A DNA stretch of 24,363 bases, from positions 1 through 24,363 of the IMG/VR virus record IMGVR_UViG_3300025070_000231. The stretch is one strand, 5' to 3'. How positions within the stretch are numbered: the first letter of the stretch is position 1; each line of letters begins with the position of its first letter. This document shows positions 1,423 to 3,512 of the stretch, piece by piece. The position numbers and the translations under genes were made by a program. The DNA comes from a virus. Below the pieces are notes generated by a model. That model searched no databases. It was not told the DNA's origin and was given only the letters and a program-made list of their open reading frames with translations.

Positions 1423-2877
1423 ATGTTTAAATACAAGACAAAGCCATACGCGCACCAAGAGGTTGCGTTACAGAAGTCGTATGATAAAAAAAATTACGGC
1501 TACTTTATGGAGATGGGGTGTGGAAAATCGAAGGTTCTTATCGATAATATCACTTGGCTCTATGAGAATAAGAAGATTGACACCGCTGTTGTTGTTGCAC
1601 CCAAAGGTGTGTACCGCAACTGGGAGGTATCAGAAATACCAACTCACCTTCCAGAGGACATTGAACACGAGGTCTATGTTTGGAATCCAAACCCAAAGAA
1701 GAATCAGCGGGAGCACTTATCCGCAGGGGTTAGTCAGCGTGACAAGCTCCGCATCTTGCTGGTCAATGTTGAAGGGTTCGCAACAGCCAAGGTTAAGAAA
1801 TACTTGGATTTATTTACACAAGGTTCGGCTTACCTACTTGCAGTTGATGAGAGCACAACTATTAAAAACCCGAAGGCCAAGCGGACTAAGGCTCTGGTTG
1901 GACTTGGTCAAACAGCCGCGTACAAGCGTATCCTTACCGGATCGCCCGTTACTAAATCGCCTATGGATCTCTACGCGCAATGCGGATTCATGGACAAGGA
2001 GTTGCTTGGCTTCGACAGCTACTACTCCTTCCAGGGGAGGTACGCTATCACACGCACTCAGCGCATGGGTTCGCACAGCTTTCAGCAGATTGTGGGGTAC
2101 AGAAACCTCGACGAACTATCAACAAGGCTAAACTACTTTTCATATCGAGTGACAAAAGAAGATGCATTAGACCTACCTGATAAGGTCTACACTATTAGAG
2201 AAGTAGGAGTTACTGATGAGCAGTACAAATACTATCAGTCATTGAAGAGTGCTGCGATTGCTTTGCTTGATGAAGGCCAGCTAGTGTCTGCCCCTGCCGT
2301 GATGACACAACTACTTCGACTGCAACAGGTACTATGTGGTCACATCATGACAGATGATGGTGAGCTAGTAGAGTTTCCGACTCGGCGTATCGATGCCCTT
2401 CTGGACACAGTGCAGGAGATGTCCGGCAAAGTAATCATCTGGTCACGGTTCCGCTATGACATCAAGAAGATTGAGGCTGAGTTAGCCAAGGTTCATGGTC
2501 CGAGTTCCGTGGTCACATATTATGGGGACACCAGTGATGATGACAGGCAGACAGCGGTCAGAAGATTTCAGTTCGAGGATGCTAGGTTTTTTGTAGCTAA
2601 CCCACAGACAGCAGGCTATGGCCTAACACTAACGGCGGCGACCAATGTAATCTACTATGCCAATGACTTTAATCTTGAGACGAGGGTTCAGTCTGAGGAT
2701 CGGGCGCATCGAATAGGCCAGAAGCATTCGGTGACCTATGTGGATTTGGTATCGAAGGGGACAGTTGATGTTCATATAGTGAAGTCTCTTCGGGATAAGA
2801 TCGACTTGTCCGCGAAGACCCTTGGAGAAGAAGCTCGTCAATGGTTGGAACTGGACCCCCGGAAAAGTGACGATTAG
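1423..2877 (+). CDS. SNF2-like superfamily 2 DNA helicase/translocase
   Basis: This 484-aa enzyme is expected to use ATP to move along or remodel DNA during phage replication or recombination. Visible motifs, in order, are: an N-terminal Q-like region (YAHQEVALQKS, 9-19), Walker A MGCGKSK (31-37), VVVAPKGVYRNW (57-68, motif Ia region), Walker B as VDEST (141-145), motif III LTGSPV (171-176), VIIWSRF (337-343, motif IV), ANPQTAGYGLTLT (392-404, motif V) and QSEDRAHRIGQ (423-433, motif VI). The GQ after the arginine finger is typical of the SNF2 branch. The length matches compact phage members with no accessory domain. Start ATG 1423 follows GAGGGG. The last 209 bases overlap the antisense end of the minus-strand nuclease gene. 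Confidence 0.93.
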   Translation: MFKYKTKPYAHQEVALQKSYDKKNYGYFMEMGCGKSKVLIDNITWLYENKKIDTAVVVAPKGVYRNWEVSEIPTHLPEDIEHEVYVWNPNPKKNQREHLSAGVSQRDKLRILLVNVEGFATAKVKKYLDLFTQGSAYLLAVDESTTIKNPKAKRTKALVGLGQTAAYKRILTGSPVTKSPMDLYAQCGFMDKELLGFDSYYSFQGRYAITRTQRMGSHSFQQIVGYRNLDELSTRLNYFSYRVTKEDALDLPDKVYTIREVGVTDEQYKYYQSLKSAAIALLDEGQLVSAPAVMTQLLRLQQVLCGHIMTDDGELVEFPTRRIDALLDTVQEMSGKVIIWSRFRYDIKKIEAELAKVHGPSSVVTYYGDTSDDDRQTAVRRFQFEDARFFVANPQTAGYGLTLTAATNVIYYANDFNLETRVQSEDRAHRIGQKHSVTYVDLVSKGTVDVHIVKSLRDKIDLSAKTLGEEARQWLELDPRKSDD

Positions 2878-3220
2878 ATGTCTGTTGTTCTGCATACTTG
2901 GCGGCATTATTATTTGGATTACGGGATAGCTGGTGTGGATACAAAGCACAGATGTTTTCTTCGAGGTCTACATATAACAGGCGAACGCCCAGCTTTAGCT
3001 GGTTGGGCTTTAACATTCGAGAGATTATAGACCCATTCTTTCTGCGGCCTACAGTCTTTACGTCAAACAAAAAAAGCTCCCCATTGGGAGCTAGTGCAAT
3101 CAAATCTATCGGGCCTTGCTCGATGAAAGGAGAGTAGACATAGCAGTCTTGGGACACCAACCAAGCGGCGGCTATAAGTTCAGATCTTTTTCCGTCACGA
3201 ATCTGATGAGCAGGTCTCAT
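2669..3220 (-). CDS. PD-(D/E)XK nuclease-like protein, opposite strand in the early region
   Basis: The first 95 residues carry the pattern of a small PD-(D/E)XK nuclease fold: Glu14 in RDGKRSELIAAAWL, Asp39 in GPIDLIAL, and Asp53-x-Lys55 in LFLFDVKT. This suits a metal-dependent DNA endonuclease of the Holliday-resolvase, restriction or homing type; which one cannot be told. ATG 3220 has AAAGG about 10 bases upstream on the minus strand. Residues from about 115 onward are read antisense to the end of the SNF2-like helicase gene, and are Ser/Pro-rich with no recognisable domain, so the true functional unit may be the first ~110 residues. It is the only minus-strand gene in the left 10 kb, diverges from the RHH gene, and shares its palindrome. 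An own promoter and possible acquisition as a cassette are inferred. Confidence 0.75.
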   Translation of the reverse strand: MRPAHQIRDGKRSELIAAAWLVSQDCYVYSPFIEQGPIDLIALAPNGELFLFDVKTVGRRKNGSIISRMLKPNQLKLGVRLLYVDLEENICALYPHQLSRNPNNNAAKYAEQQTSNRHFSGGPVPTIDELLLQGSSRTSRSYPEETSLYEHQLSPSIPNPHRSPNASGLFDAPDPQTEPSSQD

Positions 3221-3254
3221 ACTTAAAAGCCTTTCAGATAAAAAAGTTTATTCA

Positions 3255-3289
3255 CCTATATATTACTTGACTATCAAATAATATATAGG
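3255..3289. promoter_or_regulatory. 35-bp near-perfect palindromic operator between divergent genes
   Basis: Arms CCTATATATTA (3255-3265) and TAATATATAGG (3279-3289) are exact reverse complements. Inside the 13-base spacer, TTGA (3267-3270) and TCAA (3274-3277) pair as well, so 15 of 17 symmetric positions match around a centre at 3272. It lies between the start codons of the minus-strand nuclease (3220) and the plus-strand RHH protein (3333). The position over the plus -35 box, the symmetry and an adjacent RHH gene make an autoregulatory operator the simplest reading. The binding itself is inferred. Confidence 0.75.
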
Positions 3290-3296
3290 CTATTTT
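3267..3296 (+). promoter_or_regulatory. Candidate sigma-70-type promoter for the RHH gene
   Basis: TTGACT (3267-3272) matches five of six bases of a -35 box. TATTTT (3291-3296) is a weaker -10 (four of six) after an 18-base spacer. The start of transcription would be near 3303, leaving a short leader before ATG 3333. The -35 box lies at the centre of the palindrome. Immediately behind it, TTGATA on the minus strand (3277-3272) could be the -35 of the divergent nuclease promoter, with a poor -10 (AATAAA, 3252-3247). Confidence 0.5.
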
Positions 3297-3332
3297 AAAA
3301 ACCGTAACACATTAGTAATAAGGGAACAACTG

Positions 3333-3476
3333 ATGGACATGAAGAAATGGAAATCCATAGCTATCACTGTTGATGTGTATGAAATTATACGCCAGCAGGC
3401 TGAGAAGAATGACAGAAGTGTTAGTAAGCAGTTGGCGCACATAGTAAAACAAAGCGCTAAAGAAAAAGCTGCTTGA
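3333..3476 (+). CDS. Arc-like ribbon-helix-helix DNA-binding protein, 47 aa
   Basis: A short ORF behind AAGGGA (3321-3326). After a basic start (MDMKKWKS) comes a beta-strand IAITVDV (9-15), helix A VYEIIRQQAEKN (15-26), the turn DRSVSK (27-32) and helix B QLAHIVKQSAKEK (33-45). This is the ribbon-helix-helix layout of Arc/MetJ/CopG repressors. The segment RQQAEKNDRSVSKQ lines up closely, from memory, with the Arc segment RKVAEENGRSVNSE. Such proteins bind palindromes as dimers of dimers, with the strand in the major groove; here S8, A10 and T12 would be the base-reading positions (inference). The gene sits 44 bases after the 35-bp palindrome, and its own stop overlaps the -35 box of the replication-operon promoter, so it may control one or both sides. 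Confidence 0.85.
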   Translation: MDMKKWKSIAITVDVYEIIRQQAEKNDRSVSKQLAHIVKQSAKEKAA

Positions 3477-3503
3477 CATACCTCTGGGGAGTGGGTCTAT
3501 ACT
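3473..3503 (+). promoter_or_regulatory. Promoter of the replication operon
   Basis: A perfect -35 box TTGACA (3473-3478) overlaps the RHH stop codon. TATACT (3498-3503) is a five-of-six -10 box at a long 19-base spacing. An imperfect inverted repeat, GGGGAGT (3486-3492) with ACTCTCC (3501-3507, one G-U-type mismatch), flanks and overlaps the -10, and could be a second operator. No other promoter-like site as good is seen before 3552, and the next 7 kb of plus-strand genes follow with only one gap over 10 bases. Confidence 0.6.
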
Positions 3504-3512
3504 CTCCACCTG

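Follow-up and report, generated by a model that had tools for sequence, protein, structure and literature searches.

A 35-bp palindrome between two divergent phage genes

Is a long palindrome between two divergent phage genes an operator common to both, or are the control signals of the pair found elsewhere? The question is raised by an IMG/VR virus contig of 24,363 bases (IMGVR_UViG_3300025070_000231; this whole stretch is referred to below as the window), in which a 35-bp dyad, CCTATATATTACTTGACTATCAAATAATATATAGG, occupies positions 3255-3289. Direct reading and shuffles confirmed the geometry that had been proposed for it: 15 of the 17 symmetric positions match around the centre base 3272, the outer arms are exact over 11 bp, and an inner TTGA/TCAA pair follows; both mismatches are C-A. 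TTGACT on the plus strand and TTGATA on the minus strand are present at the centre as described, as are a ribbon-helix-helix (RHH) gene and a divergent nuclease gene. The dyad search found no other 35-mer in the window with more than 13 of 17 matching positions, making this dyad the best of its size there, and dinucleotide shuffles of the whole window gave 0.01 such dyads per shuffle. When only the 112-bp intergenic region (26% GC, compared with 47% for the record) was shuffled, the dyad score was equalled once in 5000 trials.

The flanking genes form a conserved pair

The gene to the right of the dyad (3333-3476, plus strand) encodes a protein of 47 aa, which matched Pfam RHH_5 above the cut-off (4.8e-06), was also placed as Arc-like by PHROGs, and retrieved Arc and Mnt from the PDB in a profile search. 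Its modelled structure is similar to that of Arc (Foldseek E 0.04, TM 0.7-0.8), and a match to ParD_like fell below the cut-off. The agreement of Pfam, PHROGs, PDB sequences and the structure model upholds the assignment of this gene as Arc-like; the product combines the ribbon-helix-helix fold with the sequence characteristics of Arc/Mnt-type repressors.

The divergent gene (2669-3220, minus strand, with the start codon ending at 3220) encodes 183 aa, a length also found in close relatives, and more distant ones have 139-150 aa. The PD-(D/E)XK-type core lies in about the first 100 residues: G-P-x-D and F-D-V-K are invariant in the alignment, where 36 relatives all keep D39 and D53-V-K55, and the modelled core gave fold matches to I-Ssp6803I (E 4e-4) and Hjc. 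These two nucleases share the predicted fold and the core motif with the 183-aa protein, at 11-24% identity in the structural matches. The Pfam PDDEXK_5 match was below the cut-off, and a sequence search of the PDB returned no match. With both the core fold and the D...(D/E)xK motif present, the motif alignment and fold match bear out the divergent nuclease of the original prediction, and on this sequence and model evidence its product is of the PD-(D/E)XK type and a predicted nuclease.

Three further features were seen around this gene. Its last 209 bases (2669-2877) overlap the 3′ terminus of the SNF2 gene, which converges on it from the opposite strand; a hairpin and T run resembling a terminator lie within its coding sequence at 3075-3092 (minus strand); and an 18-nt inverted pair of 89% complementarity, possibly a chance match, links its coding sequence (3021-3038) to a promoter-like region of the gp33-like gene (3489-3506).

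That the two genes belong together is borne out by gene order, since 79 of 80 nuclease loci carry the divergent RHH gene. The exception is L144, in which a frameshift that could be a sequencing error breaks the RHH frame. An SNF2-type helicase gene (1423-2877, plus strand in the window; Pfam SNF2-rel_dom, 4.3e-20) is the convergent neighbour in the same orientation at 79 of the 80 loci, and a gp33-like gene comes next at 78. Judged from these loci, the RHH-nuclease pairing is real and conserved across related phages. A type II toxin-antitoxin pair was considered and rejected, as it needs one operon and the genes are divergent at 79 of 80 loci; the ParD_like match, moreover, is sub-threshold.

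The dyad is limited to one phage lineage

Occurrences of the dyad were sought with exact and relaxed patterns, and relatives were gathered with an RHH alignment and a nuclease alignment. The dyad is identical in four further contigs of the same phage species, which match the window at 99.9-100% identity across several kilobases. It is absent from every other relative examined, and about 50 distinct intergenic sequences hold no comparable dyad. The search for the same palindrome beside RHH homologues or elsewhere in the genome, which the original prediction had called for, thus found carriers in same-species contigs only, and a scan for palindromes at a fixed place in relatives gave only weak signals, from related sequences. 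Both arms occur in just one further contig, L016, which was dismissed as a dyad relative, being AT-rich, with a different spacer and no sign of relation. A search of GTDB genomes for a host or prophage found no relative, and described phages matched weakly at the protein level and not at all in DNA. Within the contigs compared, the dyad is limited to one phage lineage. These findings count against an operator and −35 pair common to both genes: by its own account, the original prediction would be undermined by homologues without a conserved dyad in the intergenic region.

Sequence divergence is concentrated at the same place. Relative to the closest relatives, identity is 47-48% in the intergenic region and 70-76% in the RHH gene, and the neighbours are mostly at 84-100%. 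Between L022 and the window, the nuclease gene is 96.5% identical, the intergenic region only 47% and the RHH gene 75%, a comparison that suggests recombination of a small block around 3211-3460. A lineage-specific stretch was delimited at 3221-3266 by intergenic comparison and direct reading; it makes the distance from the nuclease start codon to TTGAC about 39 bases longer than in relatives, and contains the left arm of the dyad as well as GAAAGG (3235-3230, minus strand), which is new here and a likely ribosome-binding site. We propose that the dyad arose when, in one lineage, the sequence from the nuclease start codon as far as the RHH −10 was replaced.

The dyad could be without function, left behind by the insertion or recombination event that exchanged this sequence. 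Its confinement to a single lineage, the extra bases and the retention of the surrounding promoter elements all fit such an origin, but a palindrome this good is improbable by chance, and it is unchanged in five contigs, which carries little weight as these are near-identical overall. We regard a functionless dyad as rather unlikely.

Opposed −10 elements are conserved in relatives

The consensus scan placed an RHH promoter at 3267-3296 on the plus strand, consisting of TTGACT (3267-3272), an 18-bp spacer and TATTTT (3291-3296), so that the dyad overlaps its −35 and spacer; transcription is predicted to start near 3303, on a sigma70 consensus that may not be the host's. Relatives share this layout. 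Among about 50 distinct intergenic sequences, most of them 66-87 bp long, TTGAC follows the nuclease start codon by 7 nt in nearly all, and TAnnnT occurs at an offset of 22-24 from TTGAC in 23 of 24 non-redundant regions (shuffles: mean 1.9, maximum 8). The proposed role of TTGACT as the RHH −35 is therefore supported by its conserved position.

The proposed role of TTGATA as the nuclease −35 fared differently. It is followed by no acceptable −10 (TGAATA at 17 bp), and the scan found a promoter on the plus strand only. Relatives place the nuclease promoter instead at an extended −10, TGTTACGGT (3309-3301, minus strand), which in the window would be paired with a weak −35, TTGTTC (3329-3324), across a 17-bp spacer, giving a likely nuclease promoter at 3301-3329 on the minus strand; the poor −35 weighs against this layout. 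The minus-strand pattern TGnTAnnnT was found 0-6 bp beyond the RHH −10 in 22 of the 24 non-redundant regions (shuffles: mean 1.8, maximum 7). Its fixed positions are those that define an extended −10, and its free positions are those that such elements tolerate. Upstream of RHH genes without a nuclease neighbour the pattern was found in 0 of 15 cases (Fisher p 5e-9, a value that ignores kinship among these related sequences and serves only as a guide). In L040-L043, where no nuclease gene was found, SNF2 directly precedes the RHH gene, and the region retains TTGAC without the reverse −10. Because the reverse element is missing where the nuclease is missing, the comparison points to the conserved GTAACA box, TGTTAC when read on the minus strand, as belonging to the nuclease promoter rather than to an RHH operator, and overlap of the two is possible. 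Common descent alone is an incomplete explanation of the shared elements, because the median ungapped identity among the 24 non-redundant intergenic sequences is 45%, even if these sequences are still not independent. A side observation concerns L098, L102, L103 and similar loci, where the box TTGACCCCC serves as the RHH −35 on one strand and reads GGGGG, a likely nuclease ribosome-binding site, on the other; this double use is lost in the window lineage.

The intergenic regions thus hold a −10 for each direction, the two separated by 0-6 bp (4 bp in the window), as in a bidirectional promoter. With the nuclease start of the window predicted near 3294 on the minus strand, from a consensus that the host sigma factor may not share, the divergent starts predicted from the −10 positions lie 9 bp apart in the window and 7-13 bp apart in relatives. 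Bidirectional promoters have been defined by start sites 7-25 bp apart (PMC10268837), a class that the predicted spacing would fit, and opposed polymerases at such promoters exclude each other sterically (PMC12825309). In one orientation, RNA polymerase would start the RHH gene via TTGACT-N18-TATTTT; in the other, it would start the nuclease gene via the extended −10, and the 4-bp separation of the −10 elements would make the two orientations mutually exclusive. The nuclease promoter is predicted to read leftwards through the dyad, which would lie about 5 to 40 nt into the nuclease mRNA. Our preferred reading is that a bidirectional promoter, conserved in the phage family, occupies the intergenic region and that the dyad is a lineage-specific hairpin in the nuclease leader RNA, a combination that we are about evenly inclined to accept and to doubt.

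Hairpin in the RNA or site in the DNA

Folding of the minus-strand RNA of the dyad gave −18.8 kcal/mol (z −6.0) with 17 continuous pairs and a 3-nt loop, compared with −13.5 kcal/mol and unpaired positions for the plus strand. Only the nuclease strand gives an uninterrupted stem, since each C-A mismatch turns into a G-U pair in its RNA; against the hairpin reading, two G-U-compatible mismatches are expected by chance very roughly once in 36 cases. It also counts against a hairpin that no comparable leader hairpin was found in relatives, and that covariation, with the dyad in a single lineage, can not be drawn on. Hairpins near the 5′ end can stabilise bacterial mRNA (PMC3997798). The 17-pair hairpin would form near the 5′ end of the nuclease mRNA and would most probably serve as a leader RNA element, for example by shielding the 5′ end from decay. 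A rho-independent terminator was discarded, the terminator scan having left the dyad unflagged, and the search for known RNA families returned a single sub-threshold match, which lies elsewhere and is probably chance.

The position of the dyad over the RHH −35 also suits an operator. Narrowed to one lineage, the original prediction would have the 47-aa protein bind a lineage-specific operator, block the RHH −35, repress its own gene and perhaps block passing nuclease transcription. Autorepressors such as Arc exist among RHH-fold proteins, within the RHH promoter it is exactly the −35 and spacer that the dyad covers, and divergence in the RHH gene and intergenic region far exceeds that of their flanks, as expected if a repressor-operator cassette had been exchanged. 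On the other hand, the N-terminal strand of the RHH protein, KWKSIA.T, is nearly invariant, including in relatives without the dyad; the RHH proteins of L108 and L118 differ at one residue, yet the spacer sequences at the dyad position are unrelated; and the pairing runs on until only a 3-nt loop is left, further than an operator requires. Such an operator seems unlikely to us. The protein probably regulates the promoter region, to which its binding is predicted, with the dyad not being the conserved operator of the family.

Two other explanations were weighed. The dyad could be bound by another protein, of host or phage, or could modulate the RHH promoter by forming a cruciform that responds to supercoiling, as long AT-rich perfect arms over a −35 would allow; but no candidate protein was identified, and a scan of the whole window found no second copy of the dyad arm beyond chance matches, leaving this improbable. 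The same 35 bp could also be used in both directions, in DNA as the RHH −35 and a regulatory site and in RNA as the 5′ hairpin of the nuclease mRNA, having entered a near-unchanged replication module together with a diverged RHH allele, the two forming an exchangeable specificity cassette; we consider this double role equally improbable. Between the leader hairpin and the RHH operator, we favour the lineage-specific hairpin with moderate confidence.

Discussion

The original prediction did not recognise the circuit from described phages, which put the matter too strongly. P22 arc is a comparable arrangement of regulator and divergent gene, and P22 Arc acts on its own and on the divergent promoter. 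The E. coli acrR/acrAB locus is likewise comparable (PMC12825309). The immI region of phage P22 comprises mnt and arc-ant (PMC8022706), so that there, as here, a small Arc-type RHH gene lies beside divergent promoters in a phage; the partner in our case is a nuclease instead of a second repressor and antirepressor, the sequence similarity is weak, and the role of the RHH protein is predicted. Bacterial bidirectional promoters (Warman et al.; PMC12825309, PMC10268837) such as PacrA/acrR share with this locus opposed sigma70 promoters of divergent genes, close −10 elements and a regulator gene on one side, and at PacrA/acrR, an example of regulator and target, the repressor acts on both genes (PMC12825309). 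The phage promoters differ in that the −10 elements lie side by side without sharing bases, the genes are phage genes and the close spacing of the starts is predicted. For the hairpin, the closest counterparts are the 5′-terminal stabilising stem-loops of ompA and papA (cited in PMC3997798), which likewise place a stable hairpin a few nucleotides from the 5′ end; the one described here is AU-rich and predicted from sequence, with the start site deduced from consensus.

A striking palindrome in a single genome should be checked against relatives before it is named an operator. Here, that comparison shifts the likely site of control over the two genes away from the dyad and onto a bidirectional promoter whose −10 elements oppose each other, which is conserved across many uncultured phage contigs and for which the RHH-only relatives, lacking the reverse −10 where the nuclease is missing, form a natural control. 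The DNA segment concerned is short and open to experiment, and may show how a phage could keep a small regulator and a nuclease in balance.
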